Positions 3,149-36,914 of a stretch of 37,886 bases of DNA are shown in pieces. A model generated the notes under the pieces. It made no database searches. It was not told the origin of the DNA and worked only from the letters and a program-made list of their open reading frames with translations. Source of the DNA: Gammaproteobacteria bacterium (GTDB taxonomy: Bacteria; Pseudomonadota; Gammaproteobacteria; Xanthomonadales; Wenzhouxiangellaceae). The position numbers and the translations under genes were made by a program. The DNA is taken from the NCBI GenBank assembly GCA_009908385.1, contig JAAAPE010000093.1, positions 1 to 37,886 of the forward strand, in the 5' to 3' direction. Positions within the stretch are counted from its first letter, which is position 1, and every line of letters starts with the position of its first letter.

Positions 3149-4237
<1,089 letters not shown>

Positions 4238-4239
4238 CT

Positions 4240-4268
4240 AATGTAGCAATGCCAGCGCAAACCGGCAA
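4240..4268 (-). promoter_or_regulatory. Sigma-70-type promoter of the mreBCD-mrdA operon
   Basis: On the minus strand, -35 TTGCCG (4263-4268) and -10 TACATT (4240-4245) are separated by exactly 17 bases. The -10 ends 44 bases before the mreB ATG and sits in the only AT-richer stretch upstream of the operon. Seen directly; promoter activity is inferred. Confidence 0.6.
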
Positions 4269-4279
4269 GCTGCAATGGA

Positions 4280-4309
4280 GGGTTCAGGTTTCAGGGTTCA
4301 GGTTTCAGG
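4280..4309. repeat. Heptamer tandem array, left arm (4 copies)
   Basis: Four tandem 7-base units, alternating GGGTTCA and GGTTTCA (4280-4307), followed by GG. On the opposite strand the units read TGAACCC/TGAAACC, the same family as the array at 4411-4470, so the two arrays are inverted relative to each other across about 100 bases. The array lies immediately upstream of the mreB -35 box. Confidence 0.85.
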
Positions 4310-4338
4310 CGGCAGCGGCCGGGTTCTGGCGGGCGGAC

Positions 4339-4402
4339 AAGCCGCGACATGCAGGTGCCGGGCCTTGACGTGGTTGTTCGTGGAACCATCGTGGCGCGGC
4401 TT
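4339..4402. repeat. Imperfect inverted repeat inside the heptamer-flanked core
   Basis: AAGCCGCGACATG (4339-4351) and the reverse complement of 4390-4402 (AAGCCGCGCCACG) match at 11 of 13 positions. The pair is nested symmetrically inside the two heptamer arrays. GC-rich arms containing GCCGCG resemble REP-type extragenic palindromes, but no family is assigned. Confidence 0.5.
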
Positions 4403-4410
4403 CCTCCAAT

Positions 4411-4470
4411 CCCTGAAACCTAAACCCTAAACCCTAAACCCTGAAACCTGAAACCTGAAACATGAAACCT
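4411..4470. repeat. Heptamer tandem array, right arm (about 8.5 copies)
   Basis: Consecutive 7-base units: CCCTGAA, ACCTAAA, CCCTAAA, CCCTAAA, CCCTGAA, ACCTGAA, ACCTGAA, ACATGAA, then ACCT. The consensus is (A/C)CCT(A/G)AA. The array ends 14 bases short of the RND stop codon at 4485. AT content is well above the surroundings. It can pair with the left array (4287-4309 against part of 4440-4462 with one internal mismatch). Confidence 0.9.
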
Positions 4471-4484
4471 CGAACCGGCCGCCG

Positions 4485-7400
4485 TCAGGCGGCCTGTTCG
4501 TCGTGGCCGTGGTCGCGGGCCAGGTAGAGGTACATCGCCGGCACCACGAACAGCGTGAAGGCCGTCCCGATCGTCATGCCGGTGGCGATCACCAGGCCCA
4601 TCGAGAAACGCGAGGCCGCGCCAGCGCCGGTGGCGATGAGCAGCGGCACCATCGCCAGCACCAGGGCCGCGGTGGTCATCAGGATCGGGCGCAGGCGGAT
4701 CGATGTCGCCTCCTCGATGGCCTTGCGCTTGCTCATGCCCTCTTCCTGAAGCTTGTTGGCGAATTCCACGATCAGGATGCCGTGCTTGGAGATCACGCCG
4801 ATGAGCGTGACCAGGCCGACCTGGGTATAGATGTTGAGCGTGGTCAGGCCCAGCGCGACGAAGATCATCGCGCCGCAGATCGACATCGGCACGGTCACGA
4901 GCATGATCAGCGGGTCGCGGAAGGATTCGAACTGCGCCGCAAGCACCAGAAAGATGACCGTCAGCGCGAAAGCGAAGGTGAGCAGCAGCGCGGAACCTTC
5001 GGTCTTGAGCTGGCGCGACTGGCCCGCGTAGTCGACGTTGTAGCCCGGCGGCAGCACCTGCGCGGCGGCGGCGTCGAGTACCGCCAGGGCGTCGCCCAGC
5101 GGCACGCCCGGCCGCGGAACCCCCGAGATGGTGACCGCGTTGAGCTGCTGGAAACGCTTGAGCTGGCGCGGCTCGACCGTTTCCTCGAGGCTCACCAGCG
5201 TGGCCAGCGGAATCAGCTCGCCGCTTCTCGAGCGCGTGTAGTAGTCCTCGAGCTGATCCGGATTGAGGCGGCGCTCGCGCTCGACCTGTGGAATCACGCG
5301 GTAACTGCGGTTGTCGAGCGAGAAGCGATTGACGTAGCCGCCGGCGAGCATCGCCGAGAGGTCGTTACCCAGGGTGGCCATGTCCACGCCCAGCAGCGCC
5401 GCCTTGTCCCGGTTGACCCGGACGCGCACGCGCGGCTTGTCGATGTTGAGGTCGGAGTTGACGAAGATGAACTTGCCGCTCTCCCGCGCCGCCTGCAGCA
5501 CCTGATCGGCCAGCTGCTGGATATTGCTCAGCGGCTCGGTCGAGCCGATGACGAATTCCACCGGAAAGCCGGAACCGCCGCTGGGCAGCGAGGGAGGCAT
5601 GAACGTCGCCACCTCCAGTCCGGCCACGTTCTGCGCCGCCGGCTGAATGGCCTCGTCCATCACCGCCCGTGTCCCTCGCTCGCGCTCGTTCCAGGGCTTG
5701 AGCACGAAGCCGGTAATCGCCGAGTTGGTCGACTCGGTCATACCGCCCCCGCCGCCGCTGGCGCCGTTGATGATGAACACGTTCTCAAGCTCGGGGATCT
5801 CGTCGATCAGGTCGACGAAGGTGCGTGTGTAGCGCGACAGGTATTCGATGGTGGAGTACGGGTCGCTGGTGGACTGGGCGACCACGAAGCCCTGGTCTTC
5901 CTCGGGCGCCAGCTCGGAACTGGCAGACATGAACAGAAAGCCGCAGGAAACGAGCACGATCAGGCCGAAGACGGCGATGACCGAGCGGGTCTCGAGCGCC
6001 CCGTGGAGCTTGCGGCGATAGGCGCGGCGCAGGTTGTCGAACTTCTCGTCGAGCCAGCGCGCCAGTCGGCTGTCGCCGTTGTCGCCGTCGCTGGCCTTGA
6101 GCAGCTTGGCGCACATCATCGGCGAGAGCGTCAGCGCGACCACCCCCGACAGCAGCACGGCGCCGGCCAGCGTGAAGGCGAACTCGACGAACAGCGTGCC
6201 CGTCAGCCCGCCGATGAAGCCGATCGGGATGTAGACGGCCACCAGGGTCGTGGTCATGGCCACGACCGGCCAGGCCAGCTCACGCGCGCCCTTGATCGCC
6301 GCGTCCCGGGGTGTCATGCCCTCCTCGATGTGCCGGTGGATGTTCTCGAGCACGATGATGGCGTCGTCGACGACGATGCCGATGGCCAGCACCATCGCGA
6401 GCAGCGTGAGCAGGTTGATCGAAAAGCCCATCAGCAGCATCAGGAACAGGGCGCCGACGAGCGACAAGGGCACGGCGACGGCCGGGATGATGACCGTCCG
6501 GAGCGAGCCGAGGAACAGGAATATGACGATCACGACGATGATCAGCGCCTCGATGATCGTGGTGATCACCTCGTCGATGGCGTTGTTGATGTACTCGGTG
6601 CTGTCGTAGGGGATATCGGCTTCCAGCCCGGTCGGCAGTTCCGGCAGGATCTCGCGGTCCCACACCTCGCGCACGTCGGCGATCACGTCGAGCGAGTTGG
6701 CGTCGGGCGAGACCTCCACACCGATGAAGGTCGCCTCCTCGCCGTTGAAGCTCACCGACGAGTTGTAGCTCTCCGAACCCAGCTCCACGCGCGCGACGTC
6801 TTCCAGGCGTACGAGGGTGTCGCTGGTCGAGGCGACGACGAGGTCGCGGAACTGCTCGGGCGTCTGCAGGTCGGTCTCGGCGGTCAGGCCGATCGAGATC
6901 ATCTGGCCCTTGGTCGATCCCACCGCCGAGAGCACGTTGTTGCGCGCGAGGGCGGCGTAGACGTCGCTGGAGGTTACCTCGAGCGCGGTCATGCGGTCGG
7001 GCTCGAGCCAGATGCGCATGGCGAAGGTCTCCGCACCCAGGATCTGCGCCCGCTGCACGCCCGGGATCGTGGACAGCTTCGGCTCGACCACGCGCACCAG
7101 GTAGTCGGTGATCTGGTTGTTGTCGAGCAGCTCGCTGTAGAAGCTGAGGTACATGGCCGCGGTCGACTGGCCTTCGGCCAGGTCGACGACCGGGTCCTCG
7201 GCGGCGTCCGGCAGTTCGCCGCGCAGCTTGTTGACCTTGGCCGCCACCTGCGTGAGCGCCTCGTTGGGGTCGGTCTCGATGTCCAGGTAGGCCTGGATGT
7301 TCGACGCGCCGGGCACGGTCGTGGAGACGATGTAGTCGATGCCCTCGGCGGTCGCGACCTCGCGCTCCATCGGCGTGGTGATGAAGCCCTGGACGAGGTC

Positions 7401-7568
7401 GGCGTCGGCCCCGATGTAGGCGGTCGACACGCTGATCACCGCGTTCTGCAGCTCGGGATACTGGCGCACGTTCAGGTCGGTGGCGGCGCGCAGGCCCAGC
7501 AGCAGGATGAACAGGCTGACCACGCTGGCCAGCACCGGCTTGTTGATGAAGATGTCGGTGAATTTCAT
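4485..7568 (-). CDS. RND (HAE1-family) multidrug efflux permease
   Basis: Inner-membrane proton/drug antiporter subunit of a tripartite efflux pump. 1027 residues, the normal RND length, with two internally homologous halves each holding a large periplasmic loop and six membrane helices. The proton-relay aspartates are seen as D401-D402 in the TM4 motif GIVVDDAIIVLENIHRH. The first helix (MKFTDIFINKPVLA...) and the 'GISVTPMERE'-type porter element (here GFITTPMEREV) are typical. It starts 4 bases after the stop of the membrane-fusion gene. A 7-bp GC stem (4477-4494) spans the stop codon without a T-run. No outer-membrane channel gene is in the window, so the pump presumably borrows a TolC-like protein. 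The substrate cannot be read from sequence. Confidence 0.95.
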   Translation of the reverse strand: MKFTDIFINKPVLASVVSLFILLLGLRAATDLNVRQYPELQNAVISVSTAYIGADADLVQGFITTPMEREVATAEGIDYIVSTTVPGASNIQAYLDIETDPNEALTQVAAKVNKLRGELPDAAEDPVVDLAEGQSTAAMYLSFYSELLDNNQITDYLVRVVEPKLSTIPGVQRAQILGAETFAMRIWLEPDRMTALEVTSSDVYAALARNNVLSAVGSTKGQMISIGLTAETDLQTPEQFRDLVVASTSDTLVRLEDVARVELGSESYNSSVSFNGEEATFIGVEVSPDANSLDVIADVREVWDREILPELPTGLEADIPYDSTEYINNAIDEVITTIIEALIIVVIVIFLFLGSLRTVIIPAVAVPLSLVGALFLMLLMGFSINLLTLLAMVLAIGIVVDDAIIVLENIHRHIEEGMTPRDAAIKGARELAWPVVAMTTTLVAVYIPIGFIGGLTGTLFVEFAFTLAGAVLLSGVVALTLSPMMCAKLLKASDGDNGDSRLARWLDEKFDNLRRAYRRKLHGALETRSVIAVFGLIVLVSCGFLFMSASSELAPEEDQGFVVAQSTSDPYSTIEYLSRYTRTFVDLIDEIPELENVFIINGASGGGGGMTESTNSAITGFVLKPWNERERGTRAVMDEAIQPAAQNVAGLEVATFMPPSLPSGGSGFPVEFVIGSTEPLSNIQQLADQVLQAARESGKFIFVNSDLNIDKPRVRVRVNRDKAALLGVDMATLGNDLSAMLAGGYVNRFSLDNRSYRVIPQVERERRLNPDQLEDYYTRSRSGELIPLATLVSLEETVEPRQLKRFQQLNAVTISGVPRPGVPLGDALAVLDAAAAQVLPPGYNVDYAGQSRQLKTEGSALLLTFAFALTVIFLVLAAQFESFRDPLIMLVTVPMSICGAMIFVALGLTTLNIYTQVGLVTLIGVISKHGILIVEFANKLQEEGMSKRKAIEEATSIRLRPILMTTAALVLAMVPLLIATGAGAASRFSMGLVIATGMTIGTAFTLFVVPAMYLYLARDHGHDEQAA

Positions 7569-7572
7569 GCGT

Positions 7573-8739
7573 TCAGCCGCTCGCCGGTTGCGGGTTCAGG
7601 TCGGACTCCGGCCGGACGTCGTTGTTGATCTTCACGCTCGCGCCGTTGCGCAGCTTGAGCAGCCCGCTGGTGGCCACGCGGTCCCCGGCTTCGAGCCCGT
7701 CGGTGATGGCGATCATGTCGCCGCGGCGAACGCCGGTCTGGACCAGCCGTCTTTCAACGGTCAGCTCGGAGTCGTCGCCCTCGCCGTCGCCCTGGATGAC
7801 GTAGACGGAGTTGCCGTAGGGGTTGAAGCTGACCGCCGTCTGCGGAACCATCAGCACCTCCCGCGGCTCGCCCCAGCGCAGGATGACGCTGGCGAACATG
7901 CCCGGCCGGAGCGCCATGTCGGCGTTCTCGAAGGTGGCCTGCACCAGGAAGCTGCGCGTGCGTTCGTCGATCGAGCCCTCGACCGAGGTCACTTCGCCGC
8001 GGAAGCTGCGGCCCGGATAGGCATCGGTTTCCACGCTGACTTCCGCGCCCACCGACACCTCCGGGAGATTCCTTTCGGGCAGCGTGAAGTTGAGGAAGAT
8101 CGGTGAAATCGCACGCAGCGGCACGATGGTCGTGCCGGGCGATACGTACTGCCCGAGGTCCACCCGCCGGATGCCGAGATAGCCGTCGAAGGGTGCTCGC
8201 AGGATCTTCTGCTCGATGCGCGCCTGCTGCGCATCCATGTCGGCGACCGCCTGGCGGTAGCGCGACTCGGCCTGGTCGAGCTCGGACTCGGACACGCTGT
8301 TCTGCGCTCGCAACCGGCGCAGTCGGTCGCGCTCGGATTCGGCCAGGTCGCGCGCGGCGCGCAGTGCCGCCAGCTCGGCCTGGTCGGTGTCGACATCCAG
8401 CCTCGCCAGGACGTCGCCGACCTCGACGTAGGCGCCGTTTTCGAATTCGATCGAGCGAACGATGCCCCCGAGTTCGGTCGTCAGGTTGACGCCGTTGGTC
8501 GCCTTGAACGTGCCGACGGCCCGGATTTCGCGCGGCCAGCGATCCTCGACCGCCTCGGTGGTGGTCACGGTCGCCGGCGGCGCGGGCATGTTGTCGAAGA
8601 ACTGGTTCATCATCTTGCCCGAAAACCAGATCCAGCCGAACACGCCGCCGAACACCACGCCGACGATCAGCAGCATGATGATCATCCGCTTGGTCACCGA
8701 AGGTTGCTTGCGCTGTGCGCCCTGATGCTGATTGGCCAT
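7573..8739 (-). CDS. RND periplasmic adaptor (membrane-fusion protein)
   Basis: Periplasmic adaptor linking the RND permease to an outer-membrane channel. 388 residues: cytoplasmic basic N-terminus, one membrane helix (about 19-41) and no lipobox, so it is anchored by a helix rather than a lipid. Then come the barrel-sandwich lipoyl half, an alpha-hairpin with coiled-coil heptads (about 115-175), the second lipoyl half ('LRAPFDGYLGIRRVDLGQYVSPG'-type signature), and beta-barrel and membrane-proximal domains. It follows tetR by 3 bases and precedes the permease by 4, forming one operon. Confidence 0.94.
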   Translation of the reverse strand: MANQHQGAQRKQPSVTKRMIIMLLIVGVVFGGVFGWIWFSGKMMNQFFDNMPAPPATVTTTEAVEDRWPREIRAVGTFKATNGVNLTTELGGIVRSIEFENGAYVEVGDVLARLDVDTDQAELAALRAARDLAESERDRLRRLRAQNSVSESELDQAESRYRQAVADMDAQQARIEQKILRAPFDGYLGIRRVDLGQYVSPGTTIVPLRAISPIFLNFTLPERNLPEVSVGAEVSVETDAYPGRSFRGEVTSVEGSIDERTRSFLVQATFENADMALRPGMFASVILRWGEPREVLMVPQTAVSFNPYGNSVYVIQGDGEGDDSELTVERRLVQTGVRRGDMIAITDGLEAGDRVATSGLLKLRNGASVKINNDVRPESDLNPQPASG

Positions 8740-8742
8740 AGG

Positions 8743-9531
8743 TCAGTCTCGATTCGTTCGGTTGGTGGAGTTCGTATCCAGGTCGGAAAGCAGGACGTGC
8801 AGCCCCTCGCGATCGCACACGCCGTGGAAGACCCCGCGCCAGAGTCGTTCCACCTTGTCGGCCACGTGTGACGCGCTGATGTCGTCGACCAGGGGCTTCC
8901 AGCCCAGGCCGTTGAGCAGGAACTCGATATGCTGCAGCAGCAGTCCGTAGGGGCGATTGACGTCGTAGAAGGACAGCAGCCCGTCGGCATGGACCAGGGT
9001 GTGCATGCCCAGGCACAGCGTCCACGGCCCGACACCCAGGTCGAGATTGCGCAGGCCCCGGTCGGGCAGGTCGCCTTCGTCGACGGCCTGCCGCACGATC
9101 GAGCGGACCTCTTCGCACATCGGCTGGCTTCGCTCCAGCGCCTGGGTCCGGCGCGCCTCGCTGGTCGCCGACCAGACCGCCTCGGTGAACACGTACTGGG
9201 CCAGGCGGAAATGTTCCGGGCACTGGCTGGCGAAGAGCACGTCGGCGACCGACAGCGCGAACATCCGGTCGCGCGTCGTGCCGTCGAAGCCGGCGGCCCG
9301 GCAGAACAGCTCGACCCGATCGCCGGACATTAGCGTCGACAGCGCCAGCAGCAGGTCTTCCTTGGACGAGAAATGCTGGTAGAGGGTACCCGTGGCGTAG
9401 TCGCAGGCGGCGGCCACCCGGGCCATGGTCAGGCTGAGCAGGCCGTCGCCGAGAATCAGCCGGCGTGCGGTGTCCAGGAACAGGTCTTCGCGGGCCGCGA
9501 ATTCCCGGGCCTTGCGTTCTTGAGTACCCAT
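8743..9531 (-). CDS. TetR-family repressor of the efflux operon
   Basis: One-component regulator; 262 residues from the ATG at 9531. An in-frame extension up to 9708 exists but crosses the promoter and has no conserved character, so it is rejected. The N-terminal helix-turn-helix is clear: LTMARVAAACDYATGTLYQHFSSKEDLL, the standard TetR recognition region. The C-terminal ligand domain is divergent and contains an unusual number of Cys/Trp residues. First gene of tetR-MFP-RND, all on the minus strand with 3-4 base gaps, so repressor and pump are co-transcribed. Autorepression is likely because a perfect palindrome overlaps the promoter. Confidence 0.93.
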   Translation of the reverse strand: MGTQERKAREFAAREDLFLDTARRLILGDGLLSLTMARVAAACDYATGTLYQHFSSKEDLLLALSTLMSGDRVELFCRAAGFDGTTRDRMFALSVADVLFASQCPEHFRLAQYVFTEAVWSATSEARRTQALERSQPMCEEVRSIVRQAVDEGDLPDRGLRNLDLGVGPWTLCLGMHTLVHADGLLSFYDVNRPYGLLLQHIEFLLNGLGWKPLVDDISASHVADKVERLWRGVFHGVCDREGLHVLLSDLDTNSTNRTNRD

Positions 9532-9559
9532 GGGGCGGAGACTAGCTCGGCGGGCGTGA

Positions 9560-9588
9560 ATTAAACGCGTATTTTGAACGGCGTTCAA
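9560..9588 (-). promoter_or_regulatory. tetR-efflux operon promoter with overlapping palindromic operator
   Basis: Minus strand: -35 TTGAAC (9583-9588), 17-base spacer, -10 TTTAAT (9560-9565). A perfect 7+1+7 palindrome TTGAACGGCGTTCAA lies at 9574-9588 and covers the whole -35 box. This is the classic arrangement for TetR self-repression. Palindrome and spacing are seen directly; binding is inferred. Confidence 0.75.
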
Positions 9589-9694
9589 TAAATGATCAAG
9601 CCCCGGAAATTCCGGCGATCCGGCGTCGGCACGGCCCGGCGGGTTCATTACAATGGACGGCCGTTTCGCCCACGCAATCGCTGAGGAACCCCCA

Positions 9695-10639
9695 ATGTCC
9701 GTGCTCATCTGCGGCTCGATGGCCTACGACAACATCATGGTCTTCCCGGAGCGCTTCAAGGATCACATCCTTCCCGACAAGACCCACATGATCAACGTGG
9801 CCTTCCTGGTGCCCGAGCTGCACCGGAATTTCGGCGGAACCGCCGGCAACATCGCCTACAACCTGCGCAAGCTGGGCGGCGACCCCCTGCCGATGGCCAC
9901 GGTCGGGCCCGACTTCGACGACTACGCGCGCCACCTGGAACGGCTCGACATCAACCAGGATTTCGTGCGCACCCTGGGAGATCACTGGACCGCCCAGGCC
10001 TACATCACCACCGACCTCGACGACAACCAGATCACGGCCTTCCACCCCGGGGCGATGAACGAGGCGCACTGCCAGCCGGTCCCCGAAGACCGCGACATCG
10101 GCTTCGGAATCGTCTCGCCCGACGGCAAGCAGGCCATGCTCGACCATTCCGAACAGTTCAGGGCGGCCGGGATTCCCCACGTCTTCGATCCCGGCCAGGG
10201 CCTGCCGCTGTTCAGCGGCGAGGAACTGCAGCACATGATCACCAACGCCGACTGGCTGGCCGTCAATTCCTACGAGTGGGAGATGCTCAAGCACAAGACC
10301 GGCTGGGAACACGGCGACATCACCTCGCGCCTGGCCGGGGGCCTGGTGATCACCCATGGCGGAGAGGGCTCGGAACTGTGGACCGGCGACGGTCTGACCC
10401 GCATCCCGGCCGTCTCACCCGAGAAGATCACCGACCCCACCGGCTGCGGCGACGCCTATCGGGCGGGCCTGCTCTACGGCCTGGAGAGGGGCTGGGATTC
10501 CGCCGACGCCTGCCGGCTCGGATCGATCCTCGGCGCGCTCAAGATCGCCGAAGCCGGCCCGCAGCACCACGACTTCACGCCCGCGCAGATCGCCGAACGC
10601 TTCGAGCGCGAATTCGGCCACCCGATGCCGGCCGGCTAG
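9695..10639 (+). CDS. PfkB-family carbohydrate/adenosine kinase
   Basis: Cytosolic ribokinase-fold kinase that phosphorylates a sugar or nucleoside hydroxyl with ATP. 314 residues. Motifs: N-terminal GSMAYDN, the glycine pair region 'FGGTAGNIAYNLRKLGG' (45-62) and the C-terminal PfkB signature DPTGCGDAYRAG with catalytic base Asp253. The sequence resembles the bacterial 'adenosine kinase/carbohydrate kinase' branch more than 2-keto-3-deoxygluconate or fructose kinases, but the substrate is not certain. The start at 9695 is chosen because GAGGAAC sits 8-10 bases upstream and the conserved fold begins at once; an in-frame ATG at 9653 adds 14 non-conserved residues. A possible -10 TACAAT lies at 9649-9654. 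Confidence 0.9.
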   Translation: MSVLICGSMAYDNIMVFPERFKDHILPDKTHMINVAFLVPELHRNFGGTAGNIAYNLRKLGGDPLPMATVGPDFDDYARHLERLDINQDFVRTLGDHWTAQAYITTDLDDNQITAFHPGAMNEAHCQPVPEDRDIGFGIVSPDGKQAMLDHSEQFRAAGIPHVFDPGQGLPLFSGEELQHMITNADWLAVNSYEWEMLKHKTGWEHGDITSRLAGGLVITHGGEGSELWTGDGLTRIPAVSPEKITDPTGCGDAYRAGLLYGLERGWDSADACRLGSILGALKIAEAGPQHHDFTPAQIAERFEREFGHPMPAG

Positions 10640-10704: not shown

Positions 10705-10781
10705 GGCTACGTAGCTCAGCCGGTTAGAGCACAGCACTCATAATGCTGGGGTCGGTGGTTCGAGTCCACCCGTAGCCACCA
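10705..10781 (+). tRNA. tRNA-Met (CAT), elongator type
   Basis: A complete 77-base cloverleaf with encoded CCA. Acceptor GGCTACG pairs with CGTAGCC, D stem GCTC/GAGC, anticodon stem CAGCA/TGCTG enclosing loop CTCATAA (anticodon CAT), variable loop GGGTC, T stem GGTGG/CCACC with TTCGAGT loop, discriminator A then CCA. Perfect acceptor pairing at position 1-72 excludes initiator tRNA-fMet. The body closely matches E. coli elongator tRNA-Met rather than tRNA-Ile2(CAT). Confidence 0.97.
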
Positions 10782-35171: not shown

Positions 35172-36914
35172 GTGAACCCCTGGCGCGTTTCGCTCATCCT
35201 GGCCGCCGCCTGTCTCGCCCCGACGACCGCGGCAATCGTCGGCCTCGATCATTTCGCGAGCGCCGAGTTCCGGATCAACACGCAGGTCTACGGCGACCAG
35301 CGCGTTCCCCTGCTCGCCAGCCAGCCGGACGGCGAAGTGCTCGTGGTCTGGCAAACACCCGGGCCGCCCGGCAAGAGCTGGGACGTCGTCGCCCGCCGCA
35401 TCGACGCCGACGGCGTGCTGCAGGCGCCGGAGCTCCAGGTCAACGGCTACGGCGTCGGACGGCAGGACGGCCAGCACGCCGCCGCGCTGGCCACGGGCGG
35501 TTGGGTCGTCGTCTGGAGCGGCGAGTCGCGCGGCAGCGGCGTCCCCGGCATCCAGGCGCGCCGCCTCGATGCGGCGTCCGATCCGATCGGTTCCGACCTC
35601 GAGGTCGGCGGTCAGTTCGGCGAGCTGAATCTCCTGCCGCGCGTGGTCCCGGCCGCGGACGGCGGCTTCCTGGTGGCCTGGGAAGGACGCGGCATCTTCG
35701 ACGACACCATGAGCATCCACGGCCAGGCCTTCGACGCCAGCGGCAACCTGGACGGCCCGCTGCTGCGCGTCAGCCGTCTCGAGAACACCCAGCAGCGCCG
35801 GGTCGACCTCGCCCGAAGCGGGTCGGGTCGCACCTTCTTCGCCTGGCAGAGCAGCGAACGCGACGGCGACGGCTGGGGTATCTACGGCCGCTGTCTGGGC
35901 GAAGACGGCAGCGACAGCGGCGATTTCGGGATCAACCAGTCGACGACCGGTTCCCAGACCCAACCGCGCGTGGCCGCGCTCGCCGACGGCGGTTTCGCCG
36001 TGGTCTGGCAGGACGACCGCGGCCGCAGCACCTTCGAGTACCGGCGCGTCATGCTGCGGCACTTCGATGCCCAGTGTCAGCCCGCAGGGGACGAGACGCA
36101 GGTCAACCAGTTCGACCAGGGCATCCAGGACCTGCCCGCCATTTCGGCCGGGCCCGACGGCGTCCAGGTCGTGGTCTGGCAGAGCCTGCCGGACGATTTC
36201 GACCAGCAGGGGATTTTCGCGCGCCGCATCGGCGGCGACGGCAATTTCCACGGCGACGAACGGCGCCTCAGCATCGAACGGGAGGCTTACCAGGACTTTC
36301 CCGACGTCGAAATGCGGCCCGGCGGCGGCTTTCTGGCGGTGTGGGAATCGGCCGGCCAGGAGCTGTCCGGTTTCGGCATCTTCGGGCGCCTTTTCGACGG
36401 ACCCTCGGCCGCCGTCCTGGAAACCGTCTCGGGCGACAGCCAGTCCGCTTCCCTCGGCGAGGCCTTCGCCGAACGCCTGGTCGTTCGCCTGCGCGACCAA
36501 TGGGGGGTCGCCCTGGCCGGCCAGCCGGTGCGCTTCGACTCGTCGCCGTCCGGTCCGGGAATCGTGTTCGCCGACGGCGCGTCGTCGCGCATGGTCACCA
36601 CCGACGGACAGGGCCTGGCCGCCGTCGACGCCTTCGCCAACGACCAGGCCGGCGCGCACGAAGTCGGGGTCGAGGTGCCGGGCCGGCCGGTCCGGACCAT
36701 CCTGCGGCTGAGCAACCTCGGCGATCCACCCGTCGAGCCGCCCGTCGAGCCGCCCGTCGAGCCGCCCGTCGAGCCGCCGGCCACACCCCGGCCGGTGCCG
36801 CTGGGCGACCGGCTCGGCTGGCTGCTGATGGCCGCTGGCCTGCTGCTGTTGGGAAGGCGCACGCTGCGCGGTCGGCCGAGGCGCGGCGTCGCCGGTCGGC
36901 GTCAGGGGCTGTAG
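35172..36914 (+). CDS. Secreted propeller-like protein with PVEP repeats and IPTL-like C-terminal sorting tail
   Basis: 580 residues, GTG start. Signal peptide (1-21). Residues 30-410 hold about seven ~55-residue repeats of the type '...LADGGFAVVWQ...IYGRCLGEDG', suggesting a beta-propeller. An Ig-like domain (about 425-510, 'QSASLGEAFAERLVVRLRDQWGVALAGQPVRF', invasin/Big_1-like) follows, then PVEPx4 (520-535), a 'PVPLGDRLGWLLMAAGLLLLG' helix (about 540-560) and a basic Arg-rich end. The helix and Arg cluster look like the IPTL-CTERM/exosortase-type sorting signal. Function unknown; presumably surface-displayed. It ends 13 bases inside the convergent antiporter gene. Confidence 0.8.
   Translation: MNPWRVSLILAAACLAPTTAAIVGLDHFASAEFRINTQVYGDQRVPLLASQPDGEVLVVWQTPGPPGKSWDVVARRIDADGVLQAPELQVNGYGVGRQDGQHAAALATGGWVVVWSGESRGSGVPGIQARRLDAASDPIGSDLEVGGQFGELNLLPRVVPAADGGFLVAWEGRGIFDDTMSIHGQAFDASGNLDGPLLRVSRLENTQQRRVDLARSGSGRTFFAWQSSERDGDGWGIYGRCLGEDGSDSGDFGINQSTTGSQTQPRVAALADGGFAVVWQDDRGRSTFEYRRVMLRHFDAQCQPAGDETQVNQFDQGIQDLPAISAGPDGVQVVVWQSLPDDFDQQGIFARRIGGDGNFHGDERRLSIEREAYQDFPDVEMRPGGGFLAVWESAGQELSGFGIFGRLFDGPSAAVLETVSGDSQSASLGEAFAERLVVRLRDQWGVALAGQPVRFDSSPSGPGIVFADGASSRMVTTDGQGLAAVDAFANDQAGAHEVGVEVPGRPVRTILRLSNLGDPPVEPPVEPPVEPPVEPPATPRPVPLGDRLGWLLMAAGLLLLGRRTLRGRPRRGVAGRRQGL
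36729..36776 (+). repeat. Four perfect copies of a 12-bp in-frame repeat
   Basis: CCCGTCGAGCCG is repeated at 36729, 36741, 36753 and 36765 without any mismatch, each encoding Pro-Val-Glu-Pro. It separates the Ig-like domain from the membrane-anchor tail. Perfect DNA identity suggests recent copy-number change by slippage; the length can vary without breaking the frame. Confidence 0.95.

Follow-up and report, generated by a model that had tools for sequence, protein, structure and literature searches.

Inward-facing heptamer arrays between mreB and an RND pump gene in a Wenzhouxiangellaceae genome, and their counterparts in related genomes

Described heptamer repeats and the element beside mreB

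Dispersed intergenic palindromes, short, imperfect, GC-rich and often in inverse pairs, are familiar from bacteria in the form of the REP/BIME elements with RAYT. Heptamer arrays are also common in bacteria and have so far gone without an explanation. In the portion of their account drawn on here, Rehm et al. 2015 (PMC4692102) report 70 and 75 convergent pairs among the GGGAATC heptamer arrays of Xanthomonas; these arrays are mostly intergenic, lie near stop codons, have a mode of four units, and occupy sites of which 83% are common to two species, with changed length; the focus of that account is the quadruplex capacity of the arrays. According to the sections used of MacGregor 2015 (PMC4679880), the TAACTGA heptamers of Beggiatoaceae, cyanobacteria and Bacteroidetes are mostly direct repeats placed just before start codons, with one inverted case in the genome treated there.

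The window analyzed here is a stretch of 37,886 nucleotides from a Wenzhouxiangellaceae draft genome (2,939,376 bases in 155 contigs, 85% complete). Between mreB (3149-4195, minus strand; PF06723) and a gene for an AcrB-type RND pump (4485-7568, minus strand; PF00873), we observed an element at 4279-4470 built from a heptamer with the in-phase consensus MCCTRAA. The left array (4279-4309, minus strand) reads TTYAGGK on the plus strand and is recovered by TRF as a period of 14 in 2.2 copies with 100% matches and a score of 62, which equals 4.4 heptamer copies. It is separated by a core of 102 bases (4310-4411) from the right array (4412-4470, plus strand; 8.4 copies, TRF score 69), which reads MCCTRAA on the plus strand with some units spelled CCCTAAA. 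The resulting inverted arms (4278-4309/4440-4471) span 32 nt and are 91% complementary. These TRF counts and the complementarity of the arms confirm a sequence-only reading of the locus, which had described two inverted arrays of one word, four copies to the left and eight to the right, facing each other around a core. That reading had also taken the telomere-like CCCTAAA units for a coincidence, rightly in our view, since CCCTAAA is one of four spellings of MCCTRAA (five such units occur in arrays of at least three units in this genome); a telomere kinship of the right array is thus not supported.

As minus-strand RNA, the segment 4275-4475 folds into one long stem-loop (z -5.58, with 0 of 200 shuffles as good). 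The core alone (4320-4404) folds no better than shuffled sequence (z -0.25, 79 of 200 shuffles as good; on the other strand z +0.82, 160 of 200), so the inner inverted repeat at 4339-4351/4390-4402, to which the sequence-only reading had drawn attention, carries no significance on its own, and a core hairpin as the active part of the element is not supported. Neither is a known RNA family, since an Rfam 15 scan of four sources at the gathering score returned tRNA only; the tRNA gene in the window lies at 10705-10778 on the plus strand (RF00005). Elsewhere in the window, TRF reports a perfect 12-base tandem repeat, CCCGTCGAGCCG, in 4.2 copies at 36729-36778.

On the pump side, the stop codon (4485) lies 14 bases from the right array. 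On the mreB side, 10 bases separate the edge of the left array (4279) and a -35-like TTGCCG (4263-4268, minus strand), which is followed after 17 bases by TACATT (4240-4245); together these form a promoter-like block of mreB (4240-4268, minus strand) read from the sequence, at which a generic promoter scan calls no site by its own rule.

The array family within the genome and across relatives

An exact three-unit pattern has 99 overlapping matches in this genome and the reversed-pattern control has 0; a BLAST search with the element returns 132 pieces at E <=10, mostly array matches. From 48 stretches picked for holding arrays we obtained 59 array clusters, in which neighboring arrays on opposite strands face inward in 32 cases and outward in 0 under a looser array rule, and inward in 18 and outward in 0 under a stricter one, the counts being rule-dependent; inward here means the G-rich arm first and the C-rich arm second, on either strand. 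Genes were called with a small codon-usage caller trained on seven window genes, and start codons are therefore approximate; distance counts set aside 10 clusters at contig ends and two inside ORFs. Of 47 adjoining gene 3' ends, 38 are no more than 25 nt away from the array edge (median 8 nt); for adjoining 5' ends the median is 61 nt. In 30 of 35 codirectional cases the distance to the stop codon is at most 25 nt, whereas placing arrays uniformly within these gaps yields 16.6, and none of 5000 draws reached the observed number. Divergent genes flank 6 of 47 clusters; of 105 array-free gene pairs from these stretches, 17 are divergent. The arrays also end in a fixed phase: after the last full unit comes MCCT, with C in 87%, C in 82% and T in 77% of 78 ends at the last three positions. 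Four units is the commonest length, both in this genome (39 of 93 arrays by the looser rule; 29 of 94 by the stricter, with 27 of three units) and in the congener G003, the genome with the most arrays (26 of 86 and 20 of 51 for its two words).

The cores are variable. A comparison of 33 two-armed elements, that of the window among them, places 16 cores in one BLAST component and leaves 17 without a relative among the others at E < 0.001; in seven elements just 18-26 nt separate the arrays. Eleven cores, hand-picked from the 16-core component, can be aligned on a pair of oppositely oriented REP-like hairpins, and to these cores the window core bears a weak likeness (nhmmer 9.7 bits, E 0.0073; best of 200 shuffles 1.1 bits). 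A second dispersed GC-rich palindrome, about GCCCCGGATCAAGTCCGGGGC, recurs both within and near heptamer elements on contig C94 of this genome (L083) and on C22 of G003 (L265).

We found the three-unit pattern in 27 of the 61 genomes searched, this one included: in 24 of 29 other congeners and in 2 of the 7 genomes from the rest of the family; none of the 24 genomes representing other families of the order has it. The sequence-only reading had reserved slippage as sole explanation for a core unique in the genome and arrays absent from all relatives, a situation with which their presence in 24 congeners is at odds. Records bearing the MCCTRAA word include Wenzhouxiangella sediminis and other Wenzhouxiangella. 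The reversed control gave 18 matches to the MCCTRAA pattern in G049 (same order, other family) and 2 to the GGGAATC pattern in G070, which points to other heptamer-like arrays there. Across all bacteria and archaea, at least nine close facing pairs of at least two units point inward and 0 outward among the 117 stretches listed; 2 of the inward pairs among the matches listed are from Wenzhouxiangella and 7 from elsewhere. Same-word facing pairs, all inward, stand in Pirellula, Blastocatellia, Desulfobacterales, Acidobacteria and Flavobacterium records among the matches listed (L130, L145, L151, L177, L187, L210, L213).

At some orthologous sites other words (CCSGAAM, GACCACN) occupy the place with the same inward polarity, sometimes in layers, and at sites shared among close relatives the core, the array length and the word can differ. 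At C8:20845 this genome and G003 carry mainly MCCTRAA arrays (the left arm of G003 being mixed). In G010 both sides are occupied by CCSGAA arrays, the core begins in a similar way, and a run of MCCTRAA stands further out; G021 shows no array. At a C94 junction, G011 shows facing GTGGTCT/AGACCAC arrays where this genome and G003 have MCCTRAA, G024 retains a remnant, G027 has none, and only one side of the G018 stretch can be aligned; at the adjacent junction G011 again has the GTGGTCT word. At C8:25310, one single-armed array is identical in three species. Matches to MCCTRAA, CCSGAA and GACCAC number 99/1/40 in this genome, 268/96/0 in G003, 90/70/3 in G010, 16/11/26 in G011, 19/60/1 in G012, 7/58/0 in G013, 55/30/35 in G014 and 57/30/79 in G025, and 0/0/0 in each of G004, G007, G020 and G023. 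In 43 stretches of G003, chosen mostly for CCSGAA arrays (one, L305, gave none), opposite-strand neighbors face inward in 33 cases and outward in 0, with words mixed. Where both words stand on one side, MCCTRAA is the outer one in 27 of 33 cases and the inner one in 6, counts that are no random sample because of how the stretches were picked. The innermost facing arms had been expected to share a word and do so in only 13 of 33 cases, differing in 20. A composite junction (a CCSGAA array, a short linker and a MCCTRAA array) occurs once in the stretches of this genome and four times in those of G003, and its recurrence was not borne out.

The sequence-only reading had raised a possible effect of array copy number or cruciform formation on mreB. 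At 21 of 24 genus loci, the stretch of up to 600 nt before mreB holds no array of the three words; the form of the promoter-like block is present at 16 of the 24, this genome included, and is retained at loci in which we detected no array. TetR, membrane-fusion and RND genes (window 4485-9708) stand here between mreB and a PfkB-type kinase gene (9653-10639), and as the kinase start lies within 900 nt of mreB at 19 of the 24 loci, this operon seems to have been inserted in the lineage of this genome and G003. In the latter the succession TetR, membrane-fusion protein, RND pump, element, mreB is preserved (gene names by likeness to the window proteins). Read by eye, its element consists of an outer CCSGAA array pair, whose inner flanks look inverted, with a MCCTRAA element inside. 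G010 has a short CCSGAA inverted array at the same site, on a contig that stops 205 bases before mreB.

The closest known kind is that of the convergent GGGAATC arrays of Xanthomonas, and the arrays described here are of the same kind and, by their word, a different family. On the part of PMC4692102 used, both are heptamers, mostly intergenic, close to stop codons, with a four-unit mode, convergent pairs and sites kept with changed length, and by GTDB grouping their hosts belong to the same order. They differ in the word and in that most arrays here lack four GGG runs (4 of 72 in this genome have them). The replacement of words at orthologous sites and their layering, seen here, have no counterpart in the consulted portion of that description. 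Among 121 genomes of the order, 13 have GGGAATC arrays, with 0 matches in the 11 genomes of this genus searched (this one and 10 congeners). Six GGGAATC stretches hold no facing pair with at least two perfect units, and one close plus-then-minus pair stands at G047:C5:125594-125691. With the TAACTGA repeats, as far as the used sections of PMC4679880 go, the present arrays share a dispersed intergenic character across unrelated lineages; unlike those repeats, which mostly precede start codons, they form facing pairs behind stop codons. A literature search on heptamer, tandem and intergenic repeats, covering few subscription journals, yielded no paper that we recognized as treating these arrays in Wenzhouxiangella.

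Candidate origins and roles

Based on the occurrence of the same arrangement at many sites in the genome, and of other words at the same sites in relatives, we propose with moderate confidence that the window element is one copy of a widespread, dispersed, hairpin-forming repeat that has been ectopically copied and is tolerated mostly behind stop codons. The architecture of the family would be two inward-facing heptamer arrays around a variable core; its copies may spread and stay alike through ectopic copying between elements, via gene conversion or replication template switching at the hairpins, with slippage perhaps shifting the array length. Such copies would survive where the harm is small, mostly behind stop codons, and the stem-loop might in addition act as a transcript 3'-end hairpin. 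We infer ectopic copying among elements plus slippage as the favored mechanism, no copying event having been seen. Consistent with it are the 99 matches against none for the reversed pattern, the inward polarity, the stop-codon proximity, the fixed end phase, the different words at one site in relatives, and a stem far beyond shuffles. The match between arms is 0.881 within one element and 0.881 between elements, and thus does not point to selection acting on individual base pairs, so that pair-by-pair covariation of the arms is not supported; it fits a genome-wide uniform word rather than recent arm-to-arm copying. Against the proposal also stand the low share of G003 cases whose innermost arms have one word in common, and the weakness of T-runs outside the arrays (at least four T in 7 of 78, and 5 of 77 on the inner side). 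More tentatively, we suggest as a possibility that a lineage-wide copying process needs the inverted architecture and the seven-base step and not a given word, so that word dialects replace one another or stack, always with the G-rich arm first. If true, it would be the architecture, not the sequence, that is inherited or selected. With words changing at fixed sites, the constant features (inward polarity, seven-base period, stop-codon proximity) can be told apart from the variable ones (word, quadruplex capacity, core), a contrast that makes ideas of quadruplexes, slippage, transposons and transcript-end hairpins testable.

It appears unlikely that the element is instead a non-autonomous mobile element of REP/BIME or MITE type, served by a transposase in trans, with the arrays as its ends and REP hairpins in its core. 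Dispersed copies, the fixed end phase of the arrays, the 11 sister cores with opposed REP-like hairpins, and the G003 element at mreB, where a CCSGAA element holds a MCCTRAA element within its core in the manner of a nested insertion, all agree with such an origin. The flanks of the 33 pairs, however, show no target duplication, with equal 4-mers in 1 of 33 (0.1 expected) and 2- and 3-mers matching as by chance; apart from that one 4-mer there is no excess, and a MITE is not supported. Over half of the cores (17 of 33) also lack a relative among the others at E < 0.001, and a search for the Y1 transposase family PF01797, the one family covered, found no match in this 85%-complete draft or in G003; 9 of 30 congeners have one. 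Without target duplication or a Y1 transposase in these two genomes, RAYT-driven mobility is unsupported. The likeness to REP/BIME lies in the dispersed intergenic palindromes and in the opposed hairpins of sister cores, clear in 11 and weak in the window core, and the difference from REP/BIME with RAYT in the flanking heptamer arrays and the transposase search. The sequence-only reading had favored a small mobile or REP-like element over simple slippage: its dispersed, REP-like part is upheld by copies, polarity, end phase and the 11 cores, whereas its mobile part is not.

We also regard as doubtful the idea of a selected transcript-end hairpin, a bidirectional terminator or 3'-end stabilizer whose copies are kept by selection. 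The closeness to stop codons and the strong stem-loop would suit it, as would the finding, in the consulted part of PMC4692102, that starts and stops of transcripts in Xanthomonas are more frequent at repeats able to form quadruplexes than at control repeats. It sits poorly with the weak T-runs, the arms lacking pair-wise covariation, the two copies within coding sequence and the 21 of 24 mreB loci without arrays. A simple scan finds no terminator-like site at 4100-4600, and with T-runs this weak a canonical intrinsic terminator (GC stem plus T-run) is not supported.

Independent replication slippage at each site, and nothing further, is very improbable: it would account for array lengths that differ between orthologous sites and for a heptamer period common in bacterial repeats (PMC4692102 and PMC4679880, in the parts used), but yields neither inward-only pairs, nor one genome-wide word, nor a fixed end phase. 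We give hardly any credence to a G-quadruplex element in which the four-unit mode supplies four G-tracts, because despite the prevalence of four units in this genome and G003, at least four GGG runs occur in only 4 of 72 MCCTRAA arrays here and 2 of 69 in G003, and the GTGGTCN word has GG runs only; among CCSGAA-word arrays 18 of 38 have at least four GGG runs, and two-tetrad structures may form in arrays.

Arrays at contig ends and in lipoyl-enzyme linkers

Several draft-assembly contigs end at or near such arrays. Contigs with an array at an end, or no further than about 200 bases away, are C25, C45, C62, C143 and C149 in this genome and C8, C9, C11, C15, C34 and C53 in G003; assemblies may therefore break there, and copy numbers are perhaps too low.

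Heptamer arrays can also enter protein linkers. On C44 of this genome two arrays run in frame inside the linkers of lipoyl enzymes, namely a 2-oxoacid dehydrogenase acyltransferase and a lipoyl-pyridine nucleotide oxidoreductase fusion (L064:1654-3072 and L064:3752-5596), between the lipoyl domain and the rest. The right arm in the acyltransferase avoids the in-frame TGA of the word because one unit is ACCCGAA. Linkers could be read at 13 of 19 loci, two each for this genome and G003, and in several congeners this linker holds arrays of other words. G-rich units come first and C-rich units second in this genome, G002, G003 and G027, the G027 array being of the CCSGAA word and one of the two G003 linkers having a single left unit. 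Mainly right-hand C-rich units are found in G011, G014, G016, G021, G024 and G025, and little or nothing array-like in G017, G018 and G019. In the acyltransferase linker of G025 (L337) and G014 (L341), a further G-rich heptamer-like run, GGGAGAC, takes the left position opposite CCGGAAA units.
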